64,000 nt of DNA. Origin: Asterochloris sp. CNOR1. Its lineage: Eukaryota > Chlorophyta > Trebouxiophyceae > Trebouxiales > Trebouxiaceae. Below, piece after piece: positions 2,571 through 50,230 of the stretch (its first letter is position 1; each line of letters begins with the position of its first letter). The notes below the pieces were generated by a model that was not told the origin of the DNA, searched no databases, and worked only from the letters and a program-made list of their open reading frames with translations. A program made the position numbers and the translations under genes. The DNA lies in the NCBI GenBank assembly GCA_963969365.1, contig OZ017759.1:62001-126000 (forward strand), read 5' to 3'.

Positions 2571-5398
2571 ATGTCCAAGCTCAGTGGTGACACCATCAGG
2601 GACAGCATCCAGTGTGAGCCACAGACCCTCCAAATATGCAGACTCAACCTGCACAAGCTTTGGCTGCTTGAGTGACCTGCAACTTGAGATGTGCTGCCCT
2701 GCCTGCAGCCATTGTGGAGGCTTCCCAGGCCAAGCCCAGGAAGTTCACAGAGACCATCGAGCTCCAGATTGGGCTGAAGAACTATGACCCCCAGAAGGAC
2801 AAGCGTTTCAGCGGCACCGTCAAGCTGCCATACATGCCGCGCCCTCAGATGAAGGTGTGCTGCCTGTCAGCTGCTGTAACCCCCTGGGGCCAGGCTTCAG
2901 AGGTCTGGTCTGTCAGGCCATGCAAGCCTCCAGCCTGCCGGCCTGCCTCTGTAGGTGCCAGGCAGGCTTGTGCAGCACAGGACAGCAGTGGCTTGAGGCC
3001 GCCAGGCTAGTGCTGCACAGCTACATGCTGCCCCAGCTGGCAGATTGCAGGTTCAGGGGAGTCCTGGCAGTACAGGAGCAGTGAACCTGTTTGCGAAAGC
3101 CATCACGTCCTGCAGAGACCTCTGCTTGCCCTGCATCCCCTGGGGCGCTTGGCCAATCTGTTGGGTCTTGTCGTGTGCTGATCAGCAGGCTGCAGAGGCT
3201 GTGTACCTGATGCTGCAGGTGTTGTTGCCAGCTACAGGTCTTTGTGCTAGCCTGGCTGAGATGCGTCCTGCCTCCAGAGCTGTCCAGCGGGCTGCAGAGG
3301 CTTTGAGCCTGACACTGCAAGCGCAATTGCTGACTGCAGGTCTTTGTGCTGGGCCTGGGTGACCTGTGTGCTGCCAGACCTTGGTCCAGAGTCATCCAGC
3401 GGGTTGCAGAGGCTGTTGACATGACATTGCAAGGGCAATTGCCAGCTGCAGGTCTTTGTGCTGGGCTTGGCTAATGTGAGTGCTGCCACACCCTGGTCCA
3501 AAACCATTCAGCGGGCTGCAGAGCTGGTGACCCGACACTGCAGGTGCTGCTGCCAGCCGCAGGTCTTTTCGCTGGGTCTGGCTCACCTGTGTGCTACCAG
3601 GCCTTGGCGTGAGGCTGACTGCTGCCCCATGTGCATGCCGCCCGCCGAGAAAAAGCCTCAGTCTCTTGCCACACGTCCCCCAGAGCAGGGCAGAGAGGCT
3701 CCCCCACTGGTTCACCACTGCTCACCGTCACCCCTGCAGGTGTGCGTGCTGGGCGACCACAAGCATTGTGAGGAGGCCAAGGCGCTGGGCATCGACCAGA
3801 TGAGCGTGGAGGACCTGAAGAAGCTGAACAAGAACAAGAAGCTCGTCAAGAAGCTGGGTGAGCACCCGAACTGTTGCTCCAGGGGGGTGCAGCTTTGCCA
3901 CAGTCCCCTACCTTTTGCCATGGGGCTTCTTCATGGCCCCCCCTTGCAGTGATAAAGGAAACAGCCACAAGCTCAACCAGGAAGGGCACCCCAGCCGTCG
4001 TGCTTCCCTCCCACACGCTGCAAATGCTTGCTGCCCCTGCCGGCAGCGCTGCAGCCGAGACATCGGGCTTCCATTGCCCCTCTGCTGCTGGCCACCTGCA
4101 CCTTGTGGACACCTGCCGCCGTCCTGCCCAGATCAAGCATGCCCCACATCTGCCTGCAGCCAAGAAGTACGCAGCCTTTGTGGCATCTGAGACAGTGATC
4201 AAGCAGATCCCGCGTCTGCTGGGCCCGGGTCTGAACAAGGCAGGCAAGTTCCCGTCCCTGGTGTCCCACAGCGACGACCTGCAGACCAAGGTGGGTCGCC
4301 CGAGCACAGATCCTTCTGTGGCAGCGCATCTGAACAGGTGGCACACTGCAACCTCTAGTCGTCTGGCCCATAGTTGTAGTCTGCAGTCCAACACAGGACT
4401 GCAGGGCCTTTTTGGTGCCACACTGTCCCGCTTTCAGTCAGTCTTAAGGGTGTGCCATCCCAGCTGCTGAGCTTCCTGGATGGCTCATGTGTGTGGCTCT
4501 TGACAACTGCAGCTTGTGGCCTGCCGTCCACAGTGGTCTGCCCACATCAGGGCTGTGTCTAGGCATGCCCAGGCTGCAAAATTCAGATAGCAGCAACAGG
4601 GTTGCTCCAGGTCTTCAGGGCCGGCCACTTGCCTGCAGGTGAATGAGATCAAGTCCTCGGTCAAGTTCCAGCTGAAGAAGGTGCTGTGCATGGGTGTTGC
4701 CGTGGGCAATGTCTCCATGAATGACAAGGAGCTCTTCGTCAACACCCAGGTGAGGCTTCCCACAGCACTTGTCGCTGTTGCAAGCTGCCTTTGGGACTGC
4801 CCCACACTCACATTGGACCTGTGTGTCCGCTGACTGCTTAGTCCAGGTTTAGGTGTGGCGCAAGCACCACCATCAATGGTCGCAAAGTGACACATTGCCA
4901 CCCCTGCATCATTGGTGTTGCTGCCTTGTACAGCCAAGTCTGTTCAATGGAAACAGCTGTAGAAAGGCTGGAACCAGATCGTATCTGCCACCCACCCCGT
5001 TGGCTCCCTACCGGCTTCTGCCACCACCTTTTTTGTGGGTTGAGACAAGGCAGTGCAGCCGCTGAGTGCTTATCTGGCTATGCTCCTCACAGCTGTAGTG
5101 TGCTGAGCGGCTGGAGGCATGCGTGTAAACAGGTGCTGCCCGCATGACAGCAGCTCAGGGCTGGTCTTAACTTTCCCTTCTGGCTGTGCTGCAGATGAGC
5201 GTCAACTTCCTGGTCTCGCTGCTGAAGAAGAACTGGCAGAATGTGCGGTCCCTGCACTGCAAGACCACCATGGTGAGTCTGGCATCCCCCTTAGGTTGCT
5301 ACTTTGACCACGTGCAATTGGCCTGGTTGCCAGCGTCTTGGGGCAGGCTGAGTCTCCTGTTGCCTGTGCTGCAGGGCAAGCCTCAGCGCCTGTACTGA
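2571..5398 (+). CDS. RPL10A: 60S ribosomal protein L10a (uL1)
   Basis: Component of the L1 stalk of the cytosolic large ribosomal subunit, which helps move tRNA out of the E site. Seven exons join in phase: 2571-2613, 2709-2854, 3740-3857, 4160-4290, 4639-4749, 5195-5272 and 5375-5398, giving 216 residues, the usual family length. Diagnostic stretches include [53 protein letters not shown] and the C-terminus [15 protein letters not shown]...GKPQRLY. The start [11 protein letters not shown] agrees with the family N-terminus. The stop is TGA. Intron 2 (2855-3739) contains about four tandem units that copy the start of exon 3. A TGTAA element lies about 195 nt after the stop. The match is essentially unambiguous; only the exon 1/2 junction, where the family is variable, is slightly uncertain. 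Confidence 0.97.
3180..3600 (+). repeat. Tandem repeat in RPL10A intron 2 copying the exon 3 acceptor
   Basis: About four units, spaced about 102-112 nt apart, each contain a version of CAGGTCTTTGTGCTGGGC at roughly 3235, 3337, 3449 and 3560. The real exon 3 boundary at 3737 reads CAGGTGTGCGTGCTGGGC, so each unit looks like a diverged copy of the 3' splice site plus the first codons of exon 3. Flanking parts of the unit, such as CCAGCGGGCTGCAGAG, also repeat. Confidence 0.8.
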
Positions 5399-5592
5399 TT
5401 CATGACCACCACAGCAGCATGACTTGACCACCCCTTGCATCGCGCGGGCAAGCCAGACACCTCGCATGACCTGACCAAGTGTCAGCTGCTGCCTCGACAG
5501 CCCTGTTATTTGTTTCTGGGGTGCGGCAACTGGCTCATTGGGAGCCCCCCTTCATTGAGGAGCGCTTGTCCATGCGTTGCAATTCCTGGACT

Positions 5593-5597
5593 TGTAA
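5593..5597 (+). terminator. TGTAA poly(A) signal, RPL10A
   Basis: TGTAA is the usual green-algal polyadenylation signal. It occurs about 195 nt downstream of the L10a stop and before the opposing CID gene's stop. The role is inferred from position. Confidence 0.45.
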
Positions 5598-5885
5598 CAC
5601 ATTGATCCAGACTAGGCTGCTTGGACAGGGCCTGGCACGTATTGGGAATATTGCAACTCGCAGTTGGTCTGCTGCTTCACACTACAGAGATTCCAACGGC
5701 AACTTGACCAGCACAGAATGCGAATCGGCAAGCAGATGGATATTCAGTTGAGAGAGGGTCTCACTACTCTGGACCTGTCATGTTAGAGATCAGAAGAAGC
5801 ACCTGGCAGGTGCTGGCAGCTCCTATATTGATGCTCTATTTGGCTGAGGAGGCTGGCTGGCTGGCTGGCTGGGGAAGAAGGGGGG

Positions 5886-11509: not shown

Positions 11510-14065
11510 ATGTCAGGCTTCAGTGCGCCCCTTGCTGTGCAAGCTGCAAGCCTGAAGAAATCGGTGCAGAATAGGGAGAGGCGCAGGAATGCCCGCCAGG
11601 CAGGCAGTGCATCTCACAGGATTGCCTTCGGCAGCACTGTTGTTGACAACATGTCTGCATTCATGCTGCAGGCGGGATCTGCCTGGGAGGCTGCAGATGT
11701 TGAGGCCAAGGCGCTTCTGAAGTCTGGCAGCTCTGGTGTCGCCCTGACTCCAGAGAGCGCAGGCTATGACTATGCGCCTCAGGTCTTCCACTGCAGTCTC
11801 TGCCAGGCAAGCGCAACACAGGCAGCCCTTTGTGAGGCCCTGCACTGACCACTGCAGCAGGCTGCTTCCTTCTCAGTTCAAAAGCATCAGCGGAAGGCCT
11901 TCAACCTAACACAGGCTCACACCAGCGCCAAGCACTGACCATAGTGCACTTGGCCAGCAGGCAGCGCAGCCCACTGCGAGCCGCAAGCGAACTTCAAGGG
12001 GCTGATCAGCATGCGGCACAACAATATTACTGTGCCTTGCCGCAGGGATCTGCCTACACCAGCAGCACACGGGTGACGCTGCCCCTGCAAGGCTGCAGGC
12101 AGAGACAGATGCCGCATGAAGGCTCTCAGATTGCAACTGCAGGCCGCCTTCCCCAGCTCTGGCCTGCCCCAGCAGTGTTGCCGCCCATCACAAGAGTGGA
12201 GGCAGAGACGCATGCTGGCTGACTGAGCCCCTGTGCAGCAGCGCATTCCTGAGAGTTCTGGCCTGGAGGCAGAAGACAATGGCCTAGTGGTCTGGTGGCA
12301 AAAGACAATGTGATCAAAAGGAAATTTGCCTGCAGGCCGCCTTCCCCAACACTGGCCTGCACCGGCAGCATCTGGACAGCGCCGCCCACAAGAAGGCGCT
12401 GGCCAAGCAGGAGCGCGACCGCGAGCAGGCGGAGCGCTTGAGTCGCGGCCGGGATGCGGCAGAGAATGCTGTGGTGAGGTGGGGGTTGCCTAAACAGGGC
12501 TGTATCTCTCTGGAGCTCACCCAAAAGAGATGTGGTCACCAGTAAAGAAGGTACCATAGGCACAACTCGCACATCTGGGTGACAGCTCAGGGCCGTTTCT
12601 TTGACGCTTTGTGGAAGCTTACAGAAAAACGGCTGTCAGATTCCCTATGCCCAGCTGGTCAGTCAGTGCTGTGGCTGCAGTGGACTGGCTGCAGTGGACT
12701 GCTCAGCTGCACAGGCAGTGCTGCTGAGAGTGCTGCTGGTGCTGAGCTTGCTGCTCTGAGACGGGCATGCCATGCACGGATAGCTGCCCGCACCCTAAGG
12801 CGCAAGCGTTTGCAGTCAGATGAAGCTGGTCATGTCCTCTTATTGTGTCCTGTTTGTGTTAGTGTGAAACTGATGGAAAACTCTAGCAGCCGCAGGCTCA
12901 CTATGATCTATACGCCTCACTGTGTGTGCAGGCAGCTGCACAGTGGGCCTCAGGCGGCTTCGCAGGCGCCCAGGCGGGACGTGCCAGGTGATCTGAATGC
13001 GTCGATGATAGTCCTTGGGGGGAGCGTTTTCGGGTCTTGTCTTGTACATGCCTGACAGGCCTGTCACACCACTGTCACAAAGCCTGCTTCAGCCTGTGGC
13101 CTTCTTTTTTGTGAGGCCTTGATGCCCCGGGACGCTGCATCTGAGGAATCTGGACCAGGGTGTTGGGCAGGTACCGACTGCTTGCGAGGGCAGCACAACT
13201 TCCACCTCAAGGCTCCGTGACGTGCACTTGGGGCCTGCACAGCTGCCGCCTTGTGGCTCCGTGACGTGCTGATGTGCCGATGCCAGGACGCCCCACCAGA
13301 GCCCTGCCATGCAGCCGGGACGAGGTGGCATGAGCGGTGGGTCCCACGCGCAGCAGCAGCCCGGGCGTGGCAGGGGCAGAGGCAGGGGGCGCTTTGGGGC
13401 TGAGCAGCCGGCACCCCCAGCGGCCCCCAAACAGAGCCATGCTGACGTGGTGGCCGCCCTCAAGCAGCAGCAGGAACCCCTCACGATTGGAGGTGAGAGA
13501 AGTACTCTTGTGTCCTCAGTTGCCGTCGCTGTCCCGGCCAGACCAGCGGCAAAGCTGCACCCAGTTGAAGCATTTGGCAGTTGAATTTTGTGGCAGCGGT
13601 GCAGTTCTACACATGTGGCTGTGCAGCAGGGTGACCTGCCCACCTGATGGCTCAGAGCCTGCCTAGGGCTGGACAAGTTGTCCAATATTGTTTCACGCAT
13701 CTGTCGCAGACAATCTCACTGCATGGGTTCAAATGCATGCAGGCTGGGCCCCTCCAACAATTCTGACGCCAGCTGCGCCTCATACAGCAGGACTGGGAGC
13801 GGGCTCAGCCCAACTGGCTGAAGCGGCCAGCATTGACGCTGTAGAAGATGCTGCAGAGCACAATGCTGTACCTGCTGGCACATCCAAGGAAGAGAATGGC
13901 GCTGCTGCCCAAGCGCAGCCTGAAGTGCCAGCTGAGGTGTCGCAGCAGGCAGAAGGGCTTGGTGGCCTCGCTGACTATGGCAGTGAAGACAGTGGCTCAG
14001 ATCAGGACAGTGGACAGGGCACTGAAGATGGAGATTCTTCAAGACCTCTTGGGCCCTTTTTCTGA
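11510..14065 (+). CDS. C2H2 zinc-finger nuclear protein, unrecognised
   Basis: A clear single C2H2 finger (C-x2-C-x12-H-x5-H) is split by an intron. FHCSLCQ ends the exon at 11806 with a GC donor (CAG|GCAAGC), and AAFPNTGLHRQHLDSAAHKK opens the exon 12336-12473 in phase. A Lys/Arg/Glu helix follows, as in U1-type fingers of RNA-processing factors. The N-terminal exon starts MSGFSAPLAVQAASLKKSVQ. Whether 11605-11673 is coding or a second GC-AG intron is undecided. Later exons near 12740-12860 and 12940-13000 are tentative. An RGG-like exon (QQQPGRGRGRGRGRFGAE) ending near 13491 joins in phase to 13709-14065, which ends in an acidic tail (LADYGSEDSGSDQDSGQG) and TGA. Two separate genes remain possible. 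A copy of the AAFPNTG acceptor edge lies in the intron near 12140. Confidence 0.55.
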
Positions 14066-28300: not shown

Positions 28301-31300
28301 TGCTGCAAGAAAAGGAAACAGTTGCATCACCCTGTTCTGTACGAGCTGAAGCCTGGGCTGTACTGCCGGCCAGATGACCTTCTTGCCAGCACTGGTGTCC
28401 AGCTTCAACGACAATCAGCAATGTCCTCACTGGTTGTCTATCTTCAAGCTGTATGGAAGCTGTAGCTGGCATGTCCCTTCAGCTGGTGCATCTTTTGCAA
28501 CTACAGATGTCCAAGGCAGACTTCAAGGCACCAGCTTTTGCTCCTGCAGTTCGTCCCCAGCCTCAGGCTGCATGGCCTGCATTGCGTGATGCACACAGCA
28601 GCATGTCTTGCAAGCTCACCCTCCCTTACATGTGGTGCAATGTGCTGGCTAACAAGTTTCAGCCCCCTCTCAGGCCCAAGTGGTGTTGTGCCTCACATCT
28701 GCTGACATGCACGCAAATGCACCACCATGCAGGTACGACCCTCACGGCACGCCCCCGCGCGGCGAGATCTGCATTCGCGGTCCCCTTGTCTTCCAGGGCT
28801 ACTACAAGGACAAGGAGAAGACCAGCGAGAGCTTTGGTGAGCAGTCACTGTGTTGCATGCCTAGACCTGGTGTCACCACCGAGGTGATACCGGCAGCCTC
28901 AAGCAGCACATGCATGACAGAGCTCTGGCAGCACATGAGCAATCCCAAAGGCTTTGAGGTGATGTTGATTGAGGGCTGTGCTGACCAGCGACTGCAGCCT
29001 CTGCAGATGGTGTGCATGCACATTCTGATTTGGTGTGGGTCTTTTGCTGCAGGCTGCAGCACTTCTGGCGATCTGGCAATGCATTGGTTGCCTGCAGACT
29101 CAACGCACGGAATACATATATATATACACCCTCGATAAACCCTGAACAAAGGGACGGTCCTTTCCCACGAACTTTCACTGCAAGTACCTTAATTAGCTTG
29201 ATATACTGCAGGTATCCAGGTGCTTGCTAGCTCCCTCTCTGCTGTGAGCTGGTGGTGACAGGATGTCCAGGCGCCTGCAGACAGCACTGGTGCATCTGCA
29301 CAAGTTGCACTTTAGACAAAGACAGGCTCCCTTCACACAGCAACTCATTGTTAGCACAGAAGCGGCAAATGCAACACATCAAATGTTGTCACTGTTGGGG
29401 GACTGCCTGCAGACAAGGACGGATTCTTCCACACAGCCGCTGATCGTTGGCATGGAAGGGCAGATGCAACCACCACACATGCCGACATGTTCCTGACACT
29501 GCCTGCAGACAGGGACGGCTTCTTCCACACAGCCGCTGATTGTCGACATGAGAGGGCAGATGCAACTGGTATCTATGCCGACAAATTCTTGAAACTTGTC
29601 TGCAGACAAGGACGGCTTCTTCCACACTGGTGACGTGGGCGAGGTCACCCCTGAGGGCTGCCTCAAGGTCATCGACCGCCTGAAGAACATGTTCAAGCTG
29701 GCACAAGGTGGGCATGTCATCACTTTGCATGACGCATCGGCAAATGATTGGCAGAGGCAACGGGTGCCCAGCTTGACAGATGTGCTGAGGGCCTGGCTGA
29801 CACAACATCTCTAACAGTTGGCCAGCCCCTCAGCTTGCTTTGGGGACTGTCTGAGGTGATTGACTTCCTCAAGAACCTGTTGGGTTATGAGCAGGCACAA
29901 GGTGGACCTGCAGAAGCCGGCAGGGATCCTGTGGTCTGATTGGGCAGCAGTTAGACATCAAATGCTGGGTCCCCTCTACAGGCTGCTGAGAACTGTGCCA
30001 GCTCCACACATCAAGCTGCAGAGTCACTTGCAAGCACTTGCATGTCGAGCAATCTTGCGTCACTCACTCTCTAATGCTGTTACAGGCAGTTTCACAGTCG
30101 TGCAGTGTACCCCAAACTCGACATTTATATCTCTATATTGGCTGCAGGGGAATATGTGGCTGCTGAGAAGCTGGAGAACGACTTCGGCGACTGCAAGCTT
30201 GTAGAGCAAATCTGGGTGTACGGCAACAGCTACGAGGTGGGTTGTGGTGCCTTCTAGCATACACAGCCCACCAGGCACCTGGGATGGCATCATCTGCGTA
30301 TGTGTTGATTTAATCAAGTACTTTGCACATCTCTTCTGCAGACAAGCTACCTGGTGACTGCACTGAGCACCTGTAGAGCCCACCATGTTTCGTCAAGCAT
30401 TGAGAGGAAGCAGCTCCGGCTGCAGCCAAAGCAGTGCCCAATTTTGACATGTAATGTATTGTATGCAGAGCTACCTGGTGGCTGTGGTGGTGCCAGAGAA
30501 GCATGAGCTGGAGGCTGCAGCCAAGCAGCTGGGCGTCAGTGGCAGCTATGAGGAGATCTGCAAGGACAAAAAGGTGGGCAGTGCCCTGCCTGACAACTCA
30601 TAGACCTGCCTTTTGCAGTTAGGCTCCACAGGCAGCTGGCAAGACAGCATGGTGTGGGTTGTGTTCTGCCTCAAACGCATTCACTCTGTCGCCTTGTGGC
30701 GGCTGGTGGTGGCAGCTGCAAGAGTGTCTGCAGGTATGGCATGGTGTGCCCTTGCAGTTGATCTAGTCTTGTTCCTCTTGGCTAGGGCCTTGGCAGCTAG
30801 ATTGTAACAGCAGCTGCAAGAATATCTCAGAGGCAAAGCACGTTGGCCTGCGCCTTGCTGCACTAGCACTCAACTTGATTCCCTCAGTTGGAGCTCAGCG
30901 GCAGCTAAACGTGTGCAGCAGCTGCAAGGTCATCTGCAGGAGCAGCATGGTGTGGTGCACTCTGCATGACTGCTGTCTCTGCATCGAGCCTGGCTGGCTG
31001 CCTCTGTTGCCATCACACTGCACTCAGCACCATCTTGCCCACATTGTGCTATTTTGTTGTGCGTCATGATGCTCTGCTGCTGCTTTGGTTGGGCGAAACA
31101 GAGCTCAGCTGCGTCCAGGCAGCCTCTGATGAGTGAGCAAGCTGGGACAGCCTCTGTTGCTGCCTGTGTGCAGTTATCAATTCCGTTTGGAGTGAGTGCT
31201 CAGCATGAACAAGACAGCGACTGCCAACATCCTTGGCTCTTGCCTGCAGACCCTTGCGCTTGCATTTACGGCACTTCTATCTGAGCCTTTCCCTCCCACC

Positions 31301-31803
31301 AGCATGTGAGTACTGCCGAGTGCCTCCGACTATGCTGCTGAGGGGTCCATAAGCTGCCTGAAGGTTCGTGCTCATGTGGTGGAGAAGCTCACCGAGACGG
31401 GCAAGGGCAAGCGGTTGAAGGGCTTTGAGCTCATCAAGGCAGTCCACCTGGAGCCTGAGCCCTTTTCAGGTACGATGCGTACAGATGTCCTTACAGCCCT
31501 TGTTGCATGTCGCCTTTAGTACAGACAGGCATGCGCCTGGTTTTGCCTAAAGCCTTGTATAGTCTCAAGACGTCAGACTTCCGACGCGTCACTAGAACAC
31601 TCGAGTCTTTGCTGACATGCCGTTCCTCCCAATCGCAGCTCGCGTGGTGCCTCTGGGCGTACATGCGGTGTGCTCAATTCTCATGTTGTTGTGCTGCAGT
31701 TGACAATGACTGCATGACGCCGTCTTTCAAGCTCAAGAGGCCGCAACTGCAGCGCAAGTACAAAAAGGAGATTGACCAGATGTACAAGAGCGGCGGCAAG
31801 TGA
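22342..31803 (+). CDS. LACS: Long-chain acyl-CoA synthetase
   Basis: ATP-dependent activation of long-chain fatty acids to acyl-CoA (EC 6.2.1.3), feeding glycerolipid synthesis or beta-oxidation. Fifteen exons join in phase: 22342-22600, 23182-23235, 23457-23537, 24379-24581, 25015-25132, 25421-25617, 26281-26475, 27043-27189, 28126-28250, 28733-28836, 29606-29707, 30148-30236, 30469-30573, 31364-31469 and 31700-31803, giving 662 residues, normal for the family. Motifs seen are AMP-binding [19 protein letters not shown] (about 230-248), [18 protein letters not shown] (from 419), [26 protein letters not shown] and VIDRLKN. The C-terminus is SGGK, so there is no PTS1, and no PTS2 or N-terminal membrane segment is seen. 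Location is therefore open. Intron 8 is GC-AG (CAG|GCAAGC). Exon 14 uses an AAG acceptor and is the least certain. Introns contain many exon-edge copies. Confidence 0.95.
24215..24411 (+). repeat. Copies of LACS exon 4 acceptor edge in intron 3
   Basis: The real boundary, CTGCAGTGCCCCTGTATGAC near 24373, is preceded by copies near 24226 (CTGCAGTGCTTGTGAAGATGG) and 24299 (CTGCAGTACTCGTGAAGAAGG). Shared flanks include GCCACTGCGCCAGGCTCTGC and GACTGC(T/C)TGTCTGT. Spacing is about 73 nt. Weaker echoes lie near 23790-23890. Confidence 0.75.
29265..29625 (+). repeat. Copies of LACS exon 11 start in intron 10
   Basis: The real exon 11 begins GCAGACAAGGACGGCTTCTTC near 29603. Upstream copies at about 29410 (GCAGACAAGGACGGATTCTTC) and 29508 (GCAGACAGGGACGGCTTCTTC) encode the same DKDGFFH stretch, and an older copy lies near 29315 (AGACAAAGACAGGCTCCCTTC). 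The period is about 97-100 nt, and the linking sequence (CAGCCGCTGAT...GGGCAGATGCAAC) repeats too. Confidence 0.85.
29845..29915 (+). repeat. Copy of LACS exon 11 end in intron 11
   Basis: The exon 11 end encodes [13 protein letters not shown] followed by GTGGG. The downstream intron holds a diverged copy encoding [10 protein letters not shown]...QAQ followed by GTGG. Exon 11 thus has copies of its start upstream and of its end downstream. Confidence 0.75.
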
Positions 31804-32779: not shown

Positions 32780-35700
32780 TCAACGCCTGTAGCGGGCCCT
32801 CTTGAAGTTGAAATACAGATGCAGGATGCCACGCTCAAAGGTGCACTTGTATCCCTTCTTGTGGGAGTACTCCCAGTCTTTGGCAATTATTCTGAAAGCC
32901 ACATCCTCGTAGGGGGGCCCAGCATGGAACACCAGCAGGCAGGTGTTGCTCTGCTCATCAGCCTGGGGGTCCGGCTTGGTTGTGAAGGTGGGTGCCACCT
33001 CCTTGTCAATGAGGTCGGGGTAAAAGATGTTGAATTTGTAGCCTTGCACCACCTGCAGTGCAGTGTGATTGTATCGAGGAGCTGCCAGAAAGATGAGGGC
33101 ATGCAGCTCTGGTTGCCAGCAGGAAACCGCTCATGTCAGGCTTGTAGGGCTGCTGCTGAGACGGGACAAAGAAGCTAGTTTGCGGGACTGCCATGCAATT
33201 TGTGCCAGCTAACATCAGCATTGCAGCTTCCCATCAGCGTAAAGAAAGTGAGCTGCCTCCGCATGGGGTGCTGCTGCTCTCCTCATGCCACACAAGGGCT
33301 GGACGCCCAGAAGCTCACCTTGGGAGGTGGGTTATCGTGGTCGTAGTGGGACTGATTGTACTTATTCCACTCATAGCCTGTGTGCACGCGATTGAAGTAC
33401 TTGGGCCGCCGGGGGCGGTACTGCTCATGCCACCAGTACGCCTGCGCACAACAGCAACAGCATTCAGCTGAAAATGAAGGCCTTCAGGCTGTGTGGGTGT
33501 TCCGTGGTTACTCCTTTCACATACATTCCCTTCTGCCACCAATAAAGTACCAGATCGCAAGCTCTGCAGCACCAGGCACCAGCAGGTGTGTGACACTCTG
33601 GGCACAATGATTTAGGCCCAATCGAGTCCACCAGTCAGGCAACAGAGCAGAAGGCAAGGGGCGCAACCTGGGCCAGGACCACAGGTTGTACTTGTCCCCC
33701 AGCTGGCTTCCCGTGGCAGGCAATCTGGCAGCCAGTTCTGAGCACCAAACCAATATTCTCGGGTGTCCTCCAGCCTTTCTCCCATTGCAGGCAATTGGAG
33801 CAGCCACTCCCAAACATTGACCACACAAACAGAGGAAGTTCTTGGTCAACAGGTCCCAGCCCTAGAGCCTATGAGCAGCACTGCAGTCACCTGACGAGGT
33901 TAGGGTTCAGTGGCCAAAAGTGGCCACCCCACTTCGGCCAGAGCCATGACAGCAGGCACCAGGTGGCCTCACATTGGCGTCGGTGTCAGCTGACAAGTCC
34001 ACCTCTCCCCCGAAGGCGATGTCCCCCACTTCGGCGGCATCCCCCATCTGGCGCTCGGCAATGGCCTTGAAACGGCGCACATCTGGCTCCGCCTCGTCCA
34101 GCCTGCCCGAGCGCATGGTCGCCTCACCCCTCTGGGGAGCTGCATCCGCAAGGTACCTGCAACCCAGGGAACATCTGGCGCTCAGTAATGGCCTGGAGGC
34201 GGCGCACACCTGGTTCCGCTTTGCACCTCTGGGGCTGCTGCATCCGCAAGGTACCTGCATCCCGCAGAACACTTAAGCTGTTTTCTCACACATGAAGCAG
34301 CTGGCCAGCTAGACTGTTGCAAGTCAATTGACCAGAATCCAGTGCTTGGCTGCAGTGGATGTGAAGCACCAGCCAAGCAGGTCACTCCTGCCGCCTGCTG
34401 TCGAATGCTCCCAGATGCCTCATATGCATATGCATCTAGATGCTTGGGCCTTATAGCAAATCACTAATGCATCCACGACATCATGGGGGGCACACCCACC
34501 TCATCATGGGGTGCACTGAGGCATCATCGCTCATCATCTGCTGGTGGTAAGCCCTGTCTGCAGAGTTGGCACCGGCCACGCCCGCCTGGGCTGCTGCAGC
34601 CGCCTTGAACCTGGATGCCTCATGCTGCCGCACCTGCAGCCGCACTCAAGCCTGTTAGAGCACTGGGGGAGCTGACCACTCAGCAGTTGACCTGAACAGT
34701 AGCACCTGTGACCTTCCAGCTGGCCAGGCTTTTCTCATCAGCAGTGCAGACACTGAGGCCGCACCCATCTGCCAGCAGGCAAGAGCCGGCCATCCTGACA
34801 GTGCAGGGCCTGTGACCTTGTGCCACATGGACACCCTGCCGCCACCCTTGTCCTCATTTTAACGAGACATGTCTGCCAAAAGCATGCTCGAGCCCAGCAA
34901 TGCAGTCCACCCAGTCGTGCCCATGCAACAGCCAGAGAGGGTGAATGCAACATCGCACCTGCTTGCGCAGCAGGTTCAGCAGAGCCTCGTCCTCAGCCTC
35001 CGGAATCACATCTCTGCCAGCCACATGCTTGGGATCCAGCGGTGGCGGCGACCACTGCCCCACATTAGGCTCATCGTCCTCCGAGAACTCCTCCTCCTCC
35101 TCTTGGGGAGCCGCGGCCGCTGCAGCAGGCGCAGCGGCTGCTGCCTCCTCAGGATCAATGCCCACAGTGGCATCCTCTGCTGTGTCTGCTGCATTGCCAT
35201 CCGTTGCCTGCAGGTGATGCAATGATTATTCTGTTGTACTGCGCTGTGGAGGCCTACAGCAGCAAAAGTGGGAAATGCAGACACAACAGAGAATTGGACC
35301 TCATCAAGCGCATGGCGGGCTGCCACTGTGCAGGAAGCAGTGAATGATTTGGCCAAGCACTGAGGGGCCCAGCCCAGGTCAGGGCAGCCCTGCCTGCAAC
35401 AGAGCTGCCGCCCACTTTGGCAATACAACCTGTGTGAGGACAGTTCTGCAGCTTGATCCTCATCTCTGCAACAGCCCTCAAGGCCCGTTTTGTCAGCCTT
35501 AAGCAGCCTTGGCTAAGTGGTCGCTGAACCCCTGCACACCTCAGCCTACCCAGATAGAAAGTGAATTCCCTGTCCGCTTGTATAAGACCAACCTAGTTTG
35601 GTCAGACAGGGCATCAATTGTGTGCCTGCCTCGATGACTCAAGGTCCTGCCTTGGCTGCCTCCTTGGCTGCCTGCCACTTAGCTGCCAGCAGAGCCTCAA

Positions 35701-38700
35701 GACAATGCCATACGTGCAGCCTTACCTCAGCTTGCTGATCTCCTGATACCCCTTGCCGTCAGTGGCACTCCGACCGTAGCATACACATTTATCAACACAG
35801 TGCAGCATCTCGCATCTGCAGCAGCCTCCTGGAGCCTCTGCTCTGCAGCCCATCCCCATCTCAGGACGATGCAAACCGTCACAGCCATGTCTTGGCTGCC
35901 CAGCTGCGCTGCCGCTCACACCCGTGTCATCACATCCATCATAGCACGACAGATCGCCACTTATGAAGCAGTCTGGCCTAACCCCCATCAGTCCTCATCC
36001 ATTTGTTGCACCCCCGCCCCTACTACTGATATCTTGGCCTGTGATTGCACTACCCAGCACATCTCCTCACCTCTGCAGCAGCCTCATCAGCCCCCCAGCC
36101 CATCTCCCGCGCGACATCCACGCCCTCAGCAACATGCTCCACACGATCAATGTGCTTGCGGAGCAGGCTGACATGGATCTCACGAAGCCGTGCACGCGCC
36201 TGCAGACATGAGCATCAGAACTGCGTGAGAGGCAGCAGCACGGCAAGAAGGGCAGCGGTCTGTGGCTCTCTGCTGGTGCAGCAGCATGACATCTGACTTC
36301 ACAAAGCTGCTGCCTGTGCCTGCAGGGGTCAGCCAGCTACCAGAATCCAGTAGGGTCTCTACTTTCAGTGAGAGCACCACAACCAAGCACTGACGCTCCT
36401 CAACTGCTTCAGCGTCCAGTCACCTGTGCATGTGGCTGGGGCCGCCCTTGAGCAACAAATTTCGGACCCAAGCCATGCACAGACTGGCAGTCCGTGAGAC
36501 TTGGCGGGCCAGAAGTGACCATGCTGCAGCCCAGCACAGCATGCCCCAAACACTGACAGGCAGCGTCCTGATAGGATGCACAGCAGCATCAGCCCACCTT
36601 GTGGATGCGCAGGCGGCGCAGGACTGCTTCCCAGTACTCTGGGTCCGCCGCAGCGCCCTCTGCCAGCTGCTGCTCAATGCTGGCCTGAAGCGCCTGCAGC
36701 TCTGCATGCGTCTTGCCTGCAGAGAGGGGCAGTGGCAGCCTGTCAGCTGTCTGCCCAGTGACCAGTGACCTTTGCAACCTGCCTGAAGCACATGCATCCA
36801 GACCTCCAGGCAAGAGCCACCATCTGGCAGCCCACTACCCATGCGCTGCTCTCGATGCTTCCCACATTGTTACCTTGACACTGCTCAACACGGGTTTCAC
36901 AGCCAGCCTACAGGTGAGCCATGCTTGGAGCTCCTTAGGCAGTGTTGCTATGTCTGGCAGGCTCCATCTTGCAGGCCTCTTGCGCCCTGACACAACAGGC
37001 AGCAGGCACCCACCTGCCAGCACGCCCTGCACGTCTAGTCCAGCTGACTGTGCAGCCCCTGCTCGCGTTGCAGCTACTGCTCAAGCACAGCCTGCCCACC
37101 TGCCAGGATGGCTTGCACCAGGCCTTGTCAGAAATATCAAAAGTAAGCATGCAGCAGCTGCAAGCCACGCCCAGCCCAAATGCTCTCTTCTCACATTGAG
37201 CAGGGCACTGCACATCAAGGAGGTTCCCCTGTGTGCCCCACCCCAAGCAGGCACTCCTCGCATCTCCACAATCTGCGGCAGCTTGCCTGCAAGCATGCCC
37301 TGCTCGTCCTGGTCACATGTAGTGGCTGCATCCCACGCCCCACTGGTGTCTGAGCATTGTAGACTCTGCAGAATGGCAAGGACGTGCCACCTGTGTGCCC
37401 CACCCCAAGAGACAGGCAGCCCTCATGTCTTGTTTATTTGGCGGCTGCCCACCTGCCAGCATGCCCTGAACGTCCTGGTCCAGGTGGCTGTGCAGCCCCT
37501 GCTCGCGCTGCAGGTACTGCTCCGGCACCGGCTCCCCGCGCAGGCGAGCACGGTCAATGTGGTCCTGTTTGACAGCCTCCTGCAGCTCCCGCTCGCACAC
37601 GGTCATCAGGGCCTGCCAGAAGTCGCAGCGCTCAGCATCGTGCACATCCAGTTCCTGCACGGCACAGCCTTGATTGTGGGTTGGATGTGTGCAGCTGCAG
37701 CGGTGCTGACCGCCAGTCAGAGGTCAGCTGCGGTCTAAACCCCTCATGGAAACACAAGCTGCCGGCAGTGACAGCGGTAGACTAGCACCTCCAGCCTGCT
37801 CCAGCTCAACTGTCTGCCAGCTCTGCTGTGTGATGCAGTTGGGTGCCTAGAATTATCTGCCACACAATAGCATCAACCTGCCATTAAGGGCAGTCAGAGG
37901 GCTACAAGGCTGCAAAGCCACTCAGGGCGGAGTGCTAGCGTCACACAGAAGACTAGGCTGCTGCCACCCCGCACCCAGTGCAAACCCCAGAACCAGGCTT
38001 CAAGGTGGCTGCCTGCACAGCAGCTGAGAGCTGGGCAACAGTGTGATTGTGCTACACAGCGTCATCCTTCATAGCAGACATGCTGGGAGGCCACACATGA
38101 ACCGCCCAGTACAGACTTCAGACTAAGCCCTCATGTGGCTGTTTACACATCAGCTGAGAGCTGTACAAACAGGATCATCATGCTAACTCAGGACCAGTCT
38201 TTGCTAGCATGCCCACAACGTGCTGGTGCCCCATTCAAACATGCAGTGCAGGCCAAGCCCCCAAGCGGAAGCCAAGGGAGCTCCGGCAGAAGCTTGTGAT
38301 CACCCCACCTGAAATTCCAGGATGTCATGGTGAAACTCCTGCATGTCCTCCAGTGACAGGCCCTCAAACAGCTGGTAGGGGGGGTCCTGCTCCGGCTCAA
38401 ACTCTGCTGTGAGGTGCAGGCTGGTGGCCGCAATGTCGATGGGCTTGGCGCGCCCCTCCTTGATGCGCGTCTTGGCACGGAACAAAGCCTGATCCAAGTG
38501 GAACTGCAGGCAAGATATTTACAGGGCTGAACCGGTGGAAAGGGGGGCCTGTGACATGCCAGGCTGGCTGCGTGCGCAGGGGTTGAATAGCAGGGGCTGG
38601 ATAGCAGGTGGGCCTGCTTCCTAGACTGTGCAGCAGGGGAAGCTGGTGGACTGAGACTCGAGCAATGAAGGCAGACATTGGTTCCAAAACAGCCCTTGCT

Positions 38701-43600: not shown

Positions 43601-46600
43601 AGCCTGCTGAGCCCGCCATGCCTGCAGGCCCCCCAATCCTGGGTCCGAGGCCTGGAAGCGGCGGGAGCACGCAGGCTGGGTGAGTACGCTGATGTGTGTT
43701 TGACATCCCTGTGAGGGTTTGCAACAACCCAGACCTGTTCTCCCAAAGGCTTGCTGCCGACCAGACCATCCGCTAGTGTGAGTCTCATGCTGTTGACTTG
43801 CTATGCCTGGGTGAGTCATGCACGCATCACACACTTTTCATTCACAGCCAAAGCTCTGCCTGGGTGTCTTGCCGCCCTCTGAAAGACGCAGCCACCGCGC
43901 CAGGCCCTGGTGCTTGTGCCATGTTTTTGCATTCATGACTCGGACGACCAACAAATTTGGGCTGCGGTTTCCCTGGTCCTTGCTGCAAGATGGTGTAGCC
44001 AAAGGCTGTTGTCTTCATGGTGCACACAAAGGCACAGCTGAGGGCTGCTGCCCTTGCAGGTATACAATGGCAAGACTTGGGTCTGGGGTGGCAGCAAAGA
44101 GGGTGATGACACGCATCAGCCTGCAGAGCCTCCAGGTGAGAGTATAGTTTGCAGTGCTAGTACAGAGGTGTGGTTCATGGCGCGTCTGCCTGACCTTGCA
44201 GAGCCCTTCAGGTGGAGGGTGCAGGTCGCAGTGCAAATACAGCATGTGGTGCGTGGCGCACTTGCTTGACCTTCCAGCATCTTCAGGTGGAGGGTGCGGC
44301 TTGCAAGCTGAGTACAAAAACCTGTGGTGCGCTTGCCTCAGCTTAGAGAGCTGTCAAGTGGGGTGTGCAGGGTGCAGTGTCAGATACAGTACAGTCTGTC
44401 AAGTACGATACTGTTTCAGTGGTGCATCATATATGTTGCCCAGCGCACAGAGCCATGAAGCAGGACCTGCAGGCTGCAAACTTAGCAGCGCGGTGGCATC
44501 AGCGTATTTCCTCTTCGTGGGGTCTGCTGGTAAAAGTACAACAAGTTTGGTTTGGTTTGCTTGCTTCAGCCTGCGCAGGCCATCAAGTTGGGTCTGCAGG
44601 CTGCACGCTGCCTGCAAGTACATGAGAGCTGATAGTACCAAGTCTCCCACCACCATTGCAGTAGCGCCCAAGCCTTCAAGTCAAATAACTGATCCCTTTC
44701 ATTCCTGCTCCCCCATCTCCCCCTTGACTTGACTGGCTTGATTCTTGGCAAGAGGCCCTCTTTCGTTTTTGCTTTCAGGGGGTGCCTGGGCAGAACTGAC
44801 TGCCTGCATCCGTTCACCCCTCCATTTCCTTTCAAACTTAGGTTCAAGGGTCATGGCGATCACCCTGAGGCTCTGGCCTGCACCTGTGTGCAGGAGATGC
44901 AGACGCCAGAGGGCCCCTGGAGCCTGGCCTGAGTTCTGAGCAGCCCATGGGGGTACCAAAACCTAAAGTGGGGGCCACCTCGGCTTTCACAGCCTTTTCT
45001 GGCAGGAAGCAGAGCGACGACCACGCTGCAGCCATCCTGAGACTAAGGCAGTCCAGCTGGCAGCGGGGACAGGTGGGGGGTTGGGGTGTGGGGTTTCCTT
45101 ACGCTTTAGGTGCCTCAGCCTGCCATCTGCAGTTGGCCCCTGCTCCCCGCTGCTTGCTGAGCATGCCATGCTTGTTCTTGTGCTGTCTAGGGGGCTCGCA
45201 TGGCTTGCTGCCACCGGGTAAGGTCTGTTGAGCACACGCCAGGCTCACGACTGTGTTGGCTGTGCAGCAGTTTTGAACAGCAACGCCTCTGGAGAGAGTC
45301 AGCATGCAAACCTGCATAGGTGTTCACTGAGCATGCGCGCAGCTTTTGCGTGCGCCGGTTGCTGTTGAGCAATGTGTGATTTTGTGGAGCCTTCCTATGC
45401 AGGAGCTCCCAGCCCCGGTTGATGGAAAGATTGCCAGGTTGAAGACTGCACAGTCAGCTCCTGAAGCTGCTGTTGTAAGGATTCCCATGACACCAGCCGG
45501 GAGCCCTGATGTTGGCACCAGTGACATAGGTGGGGCAGGCTTTGACGGTCCCTAGACCATGATTGCTGGATCCAGTTGGCTTGAGTTGGCGTGGACGCTG
45601 CCTGGGCTGTGTATTGGACAGAGTACAAATGGAAGTTGGTCACACCTAGAAGTGCTGGGGTGGCTCACACCAGATCTGAATTGTGACACTGCAGCCTCTC
45701 CAGCCAGCTCAGTCAACCAGATCGTGGCCATGCTGAATAAGCACAACCAGGCAGACCAGCATGAGGCAGCTGCAAACGAGGTGCGACTGTACTCCACATC
45801 TGTGTTGCCTGTCAGGCGGCTTTGGCTGGAAATGCATTTGCATGCAGCCTGGGCTTCAAGCTTGCATGCAAGCAGCACAGGTCTGTCCGCACTGCTGCAT
45901 GAGGATCCCAATCAGTGCAGTCCTGCAGTCAACATGGCATTCTACATGTCAAGATGCTCTGCAGAGGCCTGCCCAAAGCAGGGTCCACAAGGCGACGTCC
46001 GCAGCAGCTGCCATTGCGGCGCCCCAAGATGGTGGGGCCTAGCTCCAGTCATGCGTGCCTGTTTGGGCCTGCTGTACTTGGTTGGCTGAACCACTCAGAT
46101 GCCAACAGTGCTGGCAGTCCCCGGCAAGGGTTCACTACACACATGCAATCGTGCAGTTCATGTGCTAGAGCAGGGAGGGATGGGCTGCCACTCTCACCTG
46201 TGGGTCATGCTGCTGCAGATGCTAACGCCAAAACGATTATTGCTGACTGGCTCATGGAAAAGGCGCTGCCTGTGCTGGCAGCGGTGGATGGAGGGCAGCT
46301 GGCGGTTGAGTACATGGGCTTCATTGAGCAGGCCTCGCTGTGGCAGCTGCAGCAGCACCAGAAGGCAGGCAAGTCCCTGAGGCTTGCTTGCAAGCTATCA
46401 TGCTGCAGCAGCAGGCCTTGTGTGGCAGCTACAACAGCGCCATGAGCCAGGCTAGTCCCCCTGCATCTACATTGCCAACTGCTATACATGGAGCTGCAGC
46501 AGCAGCCCTCGCTGTGGCAGCCTCAGCAGCACCAGCTGGTGGGTAAGTTGCAAACATCTGTGTACATTTGTGCCATGTCAGGTCTTAGCTGGCCGTACAA

Positions 46601-47424
46601 TTGCTGTGGCACCTGCAGCAGCACTTGGTGGCAGGTGAGTTGCTGATGATCTGCATGGGCCCCACATCGGCACCTGCTTGACGCAGATAGCAAGTGAATG
46701 CTGTAGGCGCCGCAGCAGCAGCAGCAAGCAGGCAGGCTTCAGAGTCTGTGCCGGCATCTAGGTCTGCTTCACATGTTTTGAAAGTGGGCGGCATTGCCGT
46801 AATATTACACCAGACATTGAACCGATGATCCGGCCTGCGCATAACACCTGCTTGTCAGGAGCGCCTGTCTCATTTGCCTGCTGCACTGTGCTGCTCCCAC
46901 GACAGTTCACCAAACCTGTGTACAGCTGCTTGTCTCTCTGGTGCTGCTCCCACGAGGGTACAAGACCTGTGTACAGCTACTTGTCTCTGTGGCGCTGTGC
47001 TTTCACGAGAGTACAAGACCTGTGCACAGCTGCTTCTCTCTTTAGCTTCTGCAGGCCTGCTCCCCAAGAGCCCACCAAGACCTGTGTTCAGCTACTTGTG
47101 TCTCCAGCGTCTGCAGGGCTGCTGCAAGGTCTCTGGTCCCTCAACTGAAAGTGTAGCAGGTTGCGCCAAAAGGCCTTTTATTGCACTGAATATGGTTGGC
47201 TGAGAGAGGTTTTGCAGGGGCAGGGCGGGATGTTGGGTGGTGTAGTGGTGGCGTTGCAGTCCGCACTACATGTCGGGCAACCTCTCAAACTTGCAAAGCT
47301 TTGCGCTGCCTGATATCTGTTGTGCTGCCCTGCAGCCAGCATCCTGGCACAGCACGGCGATTTGACAGGCTTCCTGATGGCAGCTTGCCGGACCATGCGA
47401 CTGGGGCACCGGGTGCCCAAATGA
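40657..47424 (+). CDS. Unrecognised nuclear protein with Tudor-like N-terminus (429 aa)
   Basis: Thirteen exons join in phase: 40657-40832, 41026-41083, 42562-42663, 42960-43050, 43388-43424, 43628-43679, 44060-44135, 44894-45072, 45403-45529, 45695-45780, 45965-46031, 46219-46368 and 47336-47424, giving 429 residues. Twelve consecutive phase matches make the chain convincing although no family is recognised. Near the N-terminus GQVLSYNPHS...FRVQWEEGRHQDL has the shape of a Tudor or Agenet barrel (G-V-x-Y ... V-x-W/Y-x-D/E-G). A basic segment with NLS-like KKRK and RRADKRERKTK follows, then HAGWVYNGKTWVWGGSKEGD. The last 60 residues are helical (IIADWLMEKALPVL, FIEQASLWQLQQHQKA). Intron 12 is GC-AG (CAG|GCAAGT). 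Intron 2 is a 1.5 kb satellite of acceptor copies. A chromatin role is inference. The true start could be upstream. Confidence 0.7.
41390..42561 (+). repeat. About 16-copy satellite of the exon 3 acceptor in one intron
   Basis: Units of about 72-73 nt, built on TGCAGGCTGCTGAGCAGGGC plus GGGCAGCTTGC, recur at roughly 41398, 41466, 41539, 41612, 41686, 41757, 41829, 41903, 41976, 42047, 42119, 42193, 42266, 42338, 42409 and 42482. The array ends at the true boundary near 42558, which reads TGCAGGCTGCTGAGCAGGAC and opens the exon (AAEQDMF). Alternating unit types give a higher-order period near 145 and 290 nt. Long minus-strand frames across the array are a by-product of repetition. Confidence 0.92.
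44118..44400 (+). repeat. Copies of exon 7 end and donor in the following intron
   Basis: The exon end GCAGAGCCTCCAGGTGAGAG near 44124 is echoed near 44197 (GCAGAGCCCTTCAGGTGGAG) and more weakly near 44273 (CCAGCATCTTCAGGTGGAG) and 44346 (AGAGAGCTGTCAAGTGGGG). Spacing is about 73 nt, and a shared GTGCGTGGCGC/GGCGCGT segment lies between them. Confidence 0.8.
46335..46655 (+). repeat. Copies of exon 12 end and donor in the following intron
   Basis: The exon 12 end TCGCTGTGGCAGCTGCAGCA...AAGGCAGGCAAG near 46335 is copied near 46508 (TCGCTGTGGCAGCCTCAGCA...GGTGGGTAAG) and near 46600 (TTGCTGTGGCACCTGCAGCA...GTGGCAGGTGAG). The copies carry GT donors while the real exon uses GC. Confidence 0.8.
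46895..47110 (+). repeat. Tandem repeat in intron 12
   Basis: About four units of roughly 58-65 nt share (C)ACGAG(G/A)GTACAAGACCTGTG and ACAGCT(G/A)CTTGTCTCT. They do not clearly resemble either flanking exon, unlike most intron repeats here. Confidence 0.75.
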
Positions 47425-47830: not shown

Positions 47831-47856
47831 TCATGCTGAGCACTCCCAAACAGATG

Positions 47857-48001: not shown

Positions 48002-50230
48002 TCAGGGAGTCTGCCGTGAGGAGGCCCGCACATGCTGCACCTCTGCAAGCACCTCCCGCCTGCTGGGCTGCAGCTGCTGCGCCACCTTCCTGCGTACAAG
48101 AGCCCTGCTCTGCTGCCTCTGCCCTGCAATCCCCGCTGTGCCAGACTCAGCTGCCTGCTGGTCCCCATTAGCCTGCGGCGCCCTGGCCTGTGCTGGGCCC
48201 TGAGGGGCTGCCCCCTTGGCCTGCTCTGCCTCCCTGCTGGCCTGCAGCAGCTCCGCTGCCCTGGCGGCCTTCAGCGCCTGCAGCTGCTGGCTCAGCCTCT
48301 GATTCTCACGGATCAGCAGCTGAGCGTGCTCCGCGTGGCACTGGCGCTGCTTGGCCACGATGGTGTTCTCTGCTAGCAGGCTCTCGTTCTCAGCAGACAG
48401 CGTCTCTGCCCTGTTCTTGACCCTCTCAAGCTCCTGTAGAGGGTCAGAGGCGTGGACCGTACTTCAGCAAGAATTGGTGCATGCAGGTGAGGCCAACTCT
48501 CAGCCGTCAAGGGCTCTGCCCTGGTTATGACACTCATAAGCTCCTGCAGTGGGCAACTGCATGGTGGGGCATGGTGGGGCAGTAGCACAGGTCCGTGCGC
48601 GCCAGAAGTGCTCCTGCAGAATGCAAAACCAGAAGAATGAGACGCATGGCATACGGATGAGGCTGCAGCAAAGACCCTGGCAGCCTGGAGGCATACCCTA
48701 GCAGCCTGAGGCAGACTGCAAGAGCAGGTACAGCAGCAGGTTTGACAAGCCAGCAATTCGGAAGCCCAACCTACAGGAGAAGCCTTCACCATCTCAGTGA
48801 CTTTGAAAACGAAGGAACCTGCAAGGAAATCATGTGAGTCCTGGCATCGCCTGCGCCTTGGGGCATGCCCTTACCCATAGCAGGGGCCATGGATGGCTTG
48901 GCGAGCCACTCCATTTGCTGCAGCCCAGCCTGACCTGTTTTACCAAACTAACGCCCTCCTGGGCCCTGACTTTTGCACCAAATGCACGATGGTCCTGATG
49001 CGGCCAGGTCCTGCATGCCACATGTGGTGAAACAGTGGTTCCCACACAAATCAACCTTTGACAACCGCGCCTCAGCATGACGCTGCCCCGCCTCTGGACG
49101 TCTTGACGCAGCGCCCTACATGCTCTGCCTGCGGCCCCATCCCCTATGTGCAGGCACCCCTATCCCTGCCTCTACCTGCAGGAACTGCTGCGCCTCGCCC
49201 TTCGACATATTGAGGGCGTGCATTGTGGTGTCCAGCTTGAGCGTGGCAGCCCGGCGGCTGTGCAGGCTGCTGTCAATGATGTCCCGCAGCTCCGCCAGCT
49301 GCTTGCGCAGCTCCGCCGTCTCCCCATCGTGGCTGGCTGCCTGCGCTGCCAGCCTCTCCTGCAGGCTGAACATTTCTGCCTCCAGGCCCTCCTGGGCTGC
49401 AGCTGCTGCTCTGCTGCAGGCCTGCAGGGCGCAAACAGATAAGTCAGCAAGCCCTTAGGGAGGGGCTTCCTGCAAACCTGCCTGGGCTGCCAGTTGTCCT
49501 CCCTCAAATTACGCTTTACATGGGGGCTGGGAGCCTGTCAGCAGGCACAATGACCATGTAGGCCCTCAGAGGCGGCAACAACCGCTGCAATGAGAGACTG
49601 CCCCTGCCGGCCAACAGGCAGCTTGAGCCAGCAAGCCCTCGTTCAGGACAGTTGAAAGGCCTGTCAGCAAAAACTCTGATCATGCAGGCCTCATGCGCTG
49701 CAGCAGCTGCCATCATGTGGTTCAGCTCTTGCCGGTAAGCAGGCAGCTTGACTCAGCCAGCCCTCATGCGCTGCAGGTCAGGCGAAGATCTCATGGCAAA
49801 ATAAGCTGGCAGTTTTGATTGCATCCTGTCAAGTATCAGCCAGCCTTGACAGTGCTTTGCAGAGATCAGACTTAGCCCTGCTCACCTGCAGCTCCTGTGT
49901 GCTGCTGGCCTGTGCCGCTTCGGCGGCCTCAGCTCGCAGCCTGGCCGCCTGCAGGGCTGCCCTCAGCGCCTGGCAGTCAGCTGCACTGACAGCATGCACC
50001 TCCTGCAGCTTTTGGAGAGCTGCTTGGCTGCCCTGGGTCTTCTCGAGAAGCTCTGCCACCTGCACCGTCCATGTGTGGCTTCACTGCAAAGTTTATCGCA
50101 ACACTGAAGACATGGACACACTCACCTGCGCCTGCAGCTTTGCAATTTTCTGGTCCTTCGTTGACAGTTGGTCATGAAAGGCCGCCCAGGGCCCTTTGGT
50201 CTTCACCTTTGCATTGATTGTCAGTGCCAT
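48002..50230 (-). CDS. Coiled-coil protein, unrecognised (318 aa)
   Basis: Four exons, all in phase 0: 50230-50126, 50059-49886, 49421-49176 and 48433-48002, giving 318 residues with a TGA stop. The start MALTINAKVKTKGPWAAFHD leads into an almost continuous coiled coil (DQLSTKDQKIAKLQAQVAEL, LQERLAAQAASHDGETAELR, RVKNRAETLSAENESLLAEN, LIRENQRLSQQLQALKAARA). The tail is basic and Gln-rich (GQRQQSRALVRRKVAQQLQP). The layout resembles basal-body or ciliary coiled-coil proteins, but coiled coils resemble one another and no specific family is claimed. A copy of the exon 4 acceptor edge lies in the upstream intron near 48505-48560. Confidence 0.75.
48500..48560 (-). repeat. Copy of coiled-coil gene exon 4 start in the upstream intron
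   Basis: Plus-strand TCTGCCCTGGTTATGACACTCATAAGCTCC near 48518 mirrors the exon 4 edge TCTGCCCTGTTCTTGACCCTCTCAAGCTCC near 48404. The acceptor position follows in both (CTGCAG in the copy, CTGTAG in the gene). Confidence 0.75.

Follow-up and report, generated by a model that had tools for sequence, protein, structure and literature searches.

The introns of the green alga Asterochloris sp. CNOR1 grow by direct copies of the edges of neighboring exons, which bring their splice sites along. This had been proposed in a sequence-only reading of a 64-kb stretch of contig OZ017759.1 (the window; C14:62001-126000 of a 56.4-Mb genome in 21 contigs), and the proposal stands both there, with a clarity that varies among the genes named, and in an independent sample of five 50-kb blocks taken from contigs C1, C2, C3, C4, and C6. 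The dominant outcome is the lengthening of existing introns. We consider it rather probable that the copies arose by short tandem duplications across exon borders, after which the spare copy decayed within the intron.

Gene models were predicted ab initio, and the exon borders used here are predictions as well. The gene finder was trained on 314 kb (the window plus the 250 kb of blocks) and was seeded with exons of two window genes, LACS and RPL10A, that had been picked by eye. It returned 34 genes, and those scoring at least 20 hold 493 exons and 465 introns, with a median intron length of 272 nt. The splice consensus that it reached consists of strict TGCAG/G acceptors and AG/GTGAG donors, the slash marking the border. 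CTGCAG, which includes the acceptor consensus TGCAG, is also the most frequent hexamer of the window (252 occurrences in 64 kb). Gene names are those of the sequence-only reading, and among them Pfam supports only LACS and CACTIN; in all, Pfam matches were found for five predicted proteins or parts of proteins (AMP-binding, Cactin, AAA/M41, DEAH helicase with HA2, and p450). For the edge test, 40 nt of each exon edge were compared with the adjacent introns, and the match was ranked against 100 same-length pieces of the introns of other genes, or against 200 such controls per edge where window and blocks were combined. Slice tests covered genes scoring at least 20, exons of at least 60 nt with a coding score of at least 8, and introns of at least 80 nt.

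Outside the window, at a P value of ≤0.01, the start of an exon matched its upstream intron in 18 of 225 tests and the end of an exon matched its downstream intron in 12 of 226. The reverse pairings gave 0/226 (start against downstream intron) and 0/225 (end against upstream intron), and slices from the middle of exons gave 0/172 and 0/166. Fisher tests of the own-side counts against these controls (0/226, 0/225, and 0/338) yield P values of 2.6e-6, 4.2e-4, and 3.8e-8. Inside the window the counts were 7/41 for starts and 5/41 for ends, with 0/41 and 2/41 for the reverse pairings and 0/24 and 1/24 for mid-exon slices. Decayed direct copies of exon borders in introns are thus real beyond the region where they were first noticed, and the rule that start copies lie upstream and end copies downstream holds in the independent blocks. 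Splice motifs cannot produce this rule, because the edge test uses exon sequence only.

In the combined data, 19 of 266 starts and 19 of 267 ends matched on their own side (38/533). The other intron positions tested in the same genes, wrong-side neighbors included, gave 22 matches in 3,309 tests, which is about chance, with 0 to 4 of 211 to 267 tests at each position; inverted copies were near chance as well (10/1,066). The copies are direct and confined to the adjacent intron. As the sequence-only reading had it, this implies repeated local duplication.

Direct local repeats are abundant in general. With a lag of 15 to 600 nt and a score of at least 18, the window holds 159 of them, whereas shuffled sequence yields 0.3 on average and inverted repeats number 9. 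The five blocks hold 12, 27, 42, 29, and 26, with 0 to 0.3 in shuffles and 0 to 3 inverted. The window is the richest of these regions, and one 145-nt array supplies part of its count. The top-scoring tandem repeat of the window lies at 41350-42490, where about eight units of 145 nt are organized into a higher-order repeat of 289 nt (93% matches). A joint-slide test, for which 163 confident introns of the 465 were used, examined whether repeats cross exon borders more often than expected. Outside the window they do: 16 border-crossing pairs were observed and 6.7 expected at score 14 (P = 0.0005), 10 and 4.2 at score 18 (P = 0.01), and, in small numbers, 3 and 1.4 at score 24 (P = 0.14).

Could these matches be an artefact of low-complexity similarity, wrong gene models, or assembly error? 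The models are ab initio, and at least one predicted exon that lies within a repeat array (3452-3526) looks false; its coding score of 4.2 falls under the cutoff. Mid-exon, wrong-side, nonadjacent, and inverted exon-slice controls, however, stay near chance, shuffled blocks hold next to no repeats, and the copies diverge from their exons by about 16%, unlike assembly duplicates. Copied edges also fall within Pfam domains: the helicase holds three (DEAD, Helicase_C, and HA2_N; VVMVDEAHERSL is one of these), the AMP-binding domain of LACS likewise three, and AAA, Cactin_mid, and p450 (GFETTNTA) one each. We therefore regard an artefact as very improbable. The position of copied edges inside Pfam domains, together with the pattern of decay described below, shows that copying ran from exon to intron.

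The copies reach only a short way into the exon. Slices of 30 nt taken 0, 15, and 30 nt from the border matched in 40, 22, and 18 of 533 tests. Farther in, the counts drop to about chance level, with 3/527 at 45 nt, 4/503 at 60 nt, and 4/474 at 75 nt; intron slices matched in 2.4 to 4.2%. Extended alignments reach 15 to 60 nt into the exon in 40 of 42 cases and 74 and 141 nt in the remaining two. There are 43 cases at a P value of ≤0.01 (23 exon starts and 20 exon ends), spread over at least 16 genes. The sequence-only reading had given the unit spacing as often about 73, 100, or 110 nt; 24 of the 43 lags are between 68 and 157 nt, the median is 124 nt, and the full range is 23 to 683 nt.

Copies match their exons with a mean identity of 0.835, the alignments averaging 29 nt. 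The three codon positions of the exon have nearly equal shares of mismatches (65/424, 70/422, and 83/416), and copies are therefore not under protein-coding constraint, a possibility that these counts rule out; they decay near-neutrally. Retention of the copies as alternative splice sites or regulatory decoys would agree with the splice motif that persists in many of them. This motif is preserved no better than the exon part, though, and decay is nearly even at all codon positions, so that we think functional retention improbable.

A profile of similarity around the border could be drawn for the 35 of 43 cases that extend to it (18 starts and 17 ends). In starts, the first exon bases have a similarity of 0.79 and the six bases 5' of the border 0.56 to 0.72, and beyond about -10 it is at background. 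In ends, it fades across about 15 nt of intron.

The richest example is LACS, a gene of the long-chain acyl-CoA synthetase type (Table 1). Of its 28 tested edges, 7 have a P value of ≤0.015, 2 more of ≤0.05, and 19 are not significant. Six of these edges also reach ≤0.01 in the combined case search, namely both edges of exon 24379-24581, both edges of 29606-29707, the start of 30469-30573, and the end of 27043-27180. Exon 29606-29707 is exon 11 of the sequence-only reading, which had reported copies on both sides of it; they are present, at 29404 and 29500 upstream (29410 and 29508 in that reading) and 29854 downstream (29850). By eye, the end of exon 27043 could use a GC donor (CTCCAG/GCAAGC, window 27180-27195) in place of the GT chosen by the gene finder. 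A 499-nt LACS query matched only itself and one paralogous exon, at positions 1501-1610 of locus L002 (C2:498719-498828; 78% identity over 110 nt). In the 3.1 kb examined around this paralog, no edge copy is significant and neither flank can be aligned with introns of the window; it therefore yields no date for the copies.

The sequence-only reading had named eight genes with such introns. The pattern is clear in LACS, weak in RPL10A, and at chance level in SNM1; significant edges also occur in the zinc-finger gene, the coiled-coil gene, CACTIN, and the 40657 gene, and the gene finder produced no separate model for the CID gene. In the zinc-finger gene, the start of exon 12336-12473 ranks at P = 0.0025; in the coiled-coil gene, the starts of 48002-48433 (P = 0.0025) and 49176-49421 (P = 0.005) stand out, as do the ends of 37453-37654 (P = 0.0025), 36071-36199 (P = 0.0075), and 34500-34633 (P = 0.0075) in CACTIN. 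The gene finder gave no model at the 40657 gene, where 46329-46368 was compared with 46375-46800 (P = 0.001; control slice, P = 0.75). None of the six 40-nt edges of RPL10A is significant (P = 0.38 to 0.89), although its two border-matching array units have only 3 mismatches in 21 nt (0.04 such matches expected). SNM1 has one edge at P = 0.047, as chance predicts for the number of tests.

Table 1. Copied exon borders and related repeats in the window (positions are those of the window)
Feature	Position	Strand	Remarks
LACS, long-chain acyl-CoA synthetase-type gene	22343..31803	+	Gene model (starts 22342); Pfam AMP-binding, E = 1.5e-78
LACS exon 24379-24581, start copied twice (both copies decayed)	23784..23920	+	Lags 586 and 495
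74-nt tandem array spanning the acceptor of LACS exon 24379	24211..24386	+	
LACS exon copied on both sides	24379..24581	+	Start-upstream P = 0.005; end-downstream P = 0.01
Downstream copy of the end of LACS exon 24379-24581	24746..24787	+	Source 24549-24590, lag 197
LACS exon 27043-27180, end copied twice (27400-27440, 27535-27573)	27400..27573	+	Lags 250 and 388; end-downstream P = 0.015
Two upstream copies (29404-29434, 29500-29530) of LACS border 29597-29627	29404..29530	+	96-nt array
LACS exon with start and end copied outward	29606..29707	+	Start-upstream P = 0.01; end-downstream P = 0.015
Downstream copy of the end of LACS exon 29606-29707	29854..29881	+	Source 29666-29693, lag 188
Copy of border 12330-12368 in the upstream intron, zinc-finger gene	12137..12175	+	Lag 193; P = 0.0025
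Copy of the start border (48388-48443) of exon 48002-48433, coiled-coil gene	48498..48553	-	Lag 110
CACTIN intron with mutually repeated ends (37441-37480, 37275-37314)	37287..37452	-	Lag 166 = intron length
23-nt tandem duplication across the end of CACTIN exon 34500-34633	34470..34516	-	93% over 15 exon nt
Five copies of an exon-end-like 48-mer, 40657 gene	46327..46737	+	82-97 nt apart; 4/5 end in AGT, donor-like
RPL10A intron array	3171..3607	+	Units 102-112 nt; two match a 21-nt stretch spanning the downstream acceptor
78-nt tandem repeat across the end of exon 63075-63543	62968..63115	-	

Under the explanation that we favor, genic stretches of about 60 to 130 nt would undergo tandem duplication at nearly any place in introns, probably by slippage or break repair. 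Where a unit straddles a splice junction, the gene would function only if the outermost junction is used, and the spare exon edge with its decoy splice site would end up inside the intron, upstream for starts and downstream for ends. Selection would retain those duplications that leave about 45 nt of intron between decoy and real site, enough for a branch point and polypyrimidine tract. The copies would then decay neutrally, and the constrained exon would act as a fossil that preserves the original. Because the exon is constrained, exon-derived parts would outlast the intron-derived part in recognizability. Only outward copies of border-straddling duplications can become silent intron, and no junction-seeking machinery is therefore needed. 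Among the young cases, some are simple tandem repeats that span the border: the end of CACTIN exon 34500-34633 (lag 23), the 96-nt LACS array, and exon 7864-8043 of the C3 block, where the repeat is complete (lag 50; 97% across 40 nt of exon and 0.91 for the intron side). Duplication of the whole unit is visible in some young cases; intron-side homology in 6 of 30 testable cases is compatible with decay only under an old age window. We infer a tandem origin for the older cases too, along with the 45-nt filter and the age window itself.

We simulated tandem duplications in shuffled introns joined to real exons (some earlier runs used real introns) and applied the same tests; the later simulations, including the model that reproduces most statistics, cover the upstream side only and are compared with observations from both sides. 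This model has units of 60 to 130 nt, at least 45 nt of intron left, ages between 0.18 and 0.45 substitutions per site, and an indel rate of 0.2 per substitution. At 0, 15, 30, 45, and 60 nt from the border it yields edge rates of 6.9, 4.9, 2.4, 0.7, and 0.7% (observed, 7.5, 4.1, 3.4, 0.6, and 0.8%), and it yields 3.2 to 4.0% for intron slices (observed, 2.4 to 4.2%), an identity of 0.84 (0.835), a median lag of 115.5 (124), and recognizable intron-side homology in 16/65 (6/30). Uniform placement with a single filter thus reproduces the upstream/downstream rule, the fall-off into the exon, the spacing, and most of the edge excess, and the rule is therefore mainly geometry plus purifying selection. 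The local duplication claimed by the sequence-only reading is supported; the breakpoint at or near splice junctions that it also envisaged is not required. Two variants were rejected: units equal to the observed lag, with no filter, extend too deep into the exon, and short units (30 to 80 nt) fit the fall-off but predict median lags of 60 to 71.

Several observations weigh against this explanation. The intron side of the unit, more than 12 nt from the border, is recognizable in only 6 of 30 testable cases (lag of ≤200) and unrecognizable in 24. Of the 23 start cases, 18 extend to the border, and in these similarity ends about 6 to 10 nt upstream of it. The model that reproduces most statistics produces 7.5 gaps per 100 mismatches where 4.6 are observed and an edge/intron ratio of 1.89 where 2.45 is observed. 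At the indel rate that matches the gaps (4.4 per 100 mismatches in the model), intron-side homology rises to 37/70, and with 0.1 indels per substitution the misfit in this homology is significant (P = 0.008 or less, over the 28 of 30 cases with at least 20 aligned nt). The fit also requires an age window that excludes recent events. Tandem duplication at a constant rate fails, with many young copies whose intron sides are mostly intact (48/59), an edge/intron ratio of 0.61 against 2.45, and an identity of 0.89. Since the unit range, the filter, and the age window were picked after the data had been seen, the simulations speak for sufficiency and are not proof. Some cases look like spaced copies of an exon edge plus splice motif. 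Exon 23430-23750 of the C6 block is one; its identity (93% across 40 nt of exon) is similar to that of the complete C3 repeat, but homology on the intron side is absent beyond 12 nt (P = 0.27). Exon 44567-45385 of the C4 block (P = 0.52) is another.

Because the intron-side loss and the edge excess exceed the model at the gap-fitting indel rate, it is possible, if doubtful, that copying is biased toward junctions. An exon edge of about 20 to 60 nt with 5 to 15 nt of flanking splice motif would then be placed, always outward and direct, into the adjacent intron about 70 to 150 nt away, by serial replication slippage, by template switching anchored at splice motifs, or from a nascent RNA template; splice-motif microhomology or nascent RNA could supply the guidance. 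The loss of the intron side in 24/30 cases speaks for this reading, whereas tandem models with few indels (0.05 to 0.1 per substitution, which agrees with the observed gaps) keep it in 60 to 79%, and a further simulation at 0.1 keeps it in 45 to 73%. The sharp left bound of start cases near -6, the border-crossing excess at score 14, and the higher rate in edge slices (7.5%) than in intron slices (about 3%) point the same way. On the other side, tandem duplication with the old age window and 0.2 indels per substitution fits intron-side homology within error (8.7 expected and 6 observed over the same 28 cases, P = 0.19), several young cases are plain tandem, and the border excess weakens at score 24. 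Exon-internal TGCAG is not copied (2/172), and intronic TGCAG serves as an anchor no better than random positions (24/514 against 41/932), counts that rule out splice-motif microhomology as a general anchor.

Tandem genomic duplication is a described route of intron gain (PMC3443670), for which Rogers 1989, Gao and Lynch 2009, and Hellsten 2011 are named in PMC3443670 and PMC4974935. In a potato case, the duplicated segment comprises the 3' portion of an intron and the 5' portion of its exon (PMC4974935), and some Drosophila introns are reported that seemingly derive from tandem duplication of coding sequence (PMC2891723). The present case shares with this route the local direct duplication of genic DNA with its splice sites, the turning of exon-derived sequence into intron, and the preservation of function by splice-site choice. 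It differs in that the described route makes a new intron, or an intron plus an exon, whereas here an existing intron grows and the decoy, judged by sequence, appears silent; also unlike that route, the copies touch about 7% of tested exon edges. That the introns were themselves created by duplication of an AGGT-containing exon segment, so that exon edges would recur within the new intron, is most unlikely as a general account. Such a gain predicts a lag equal to intron length with both borders in the repeat. CACTIN intron 37287-37452 has this geometry, and exon 5414-5651 of the C6 block has a 16-nt match at a lag close to intron length (683 against 665). The lag is, however, below intron length in 41/43 cases, and the 163 confident introns, a set that does not include the CACTIN intron, hold no both-border pair at a score of ≥16 and one at 14 to 15.

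Introners (PMC9860276) are likewise repeated intron sequences that carry splice sites. The distinction drawn in the sequence-only reading is borne out: the copies are limited to the adjacent intron, what is repeated is an edge of the host exon with its splice-site motif, and exon edges match no other intron of the same gene above chance, in a comparison confined to same-gene introns with no genome-wide search for intron families. Minisatellites and intronic tandem repeats are direct repeats. Some multicopy border arrays here, with units of 74 to 112 nt, resemble them, but many copies are old, spaced, and recognizable only in their exon-derived part. Templated insertions by polymerase theta are expected in both orientations; like serial replication slippage, they share with the present case short local copies, but inverted copies here are near chance. 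Among the papers listed in searches of an open-licence library, we found none whose title or abstract start tells of introns lengthened by exon-edge copies.

The window holds two other repeats of note. Two 300-nt blocks at 20110-20409 and 20848-21147 are 82% identical and 738 nt apart, and a 12/24-nt array (AGCCTGCTGC...) at 58910-59062 is possibly coding.

Discussions of intron length and decoy splice sites often center on transposons. Here, about 1 in 14 tested exon edges (38/533 at a P value of ≤0.01, where chance gives up to about 1%) has a detectable decayed copy in the neighboring intron. Should further data uphold the misfits of the tandem model, these would suggest an undescribed process that is biased toward junctions; junction-linked copying, if true, would give introns a distinct way to grow, one in which decoy splice sites are created. 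The exon, acting as a fossil, exposes duplications after their intron part has faded, and this approach offers a measure of intron growth by local duplication, and of the splicing filter that acts on it, in any annotated genome.

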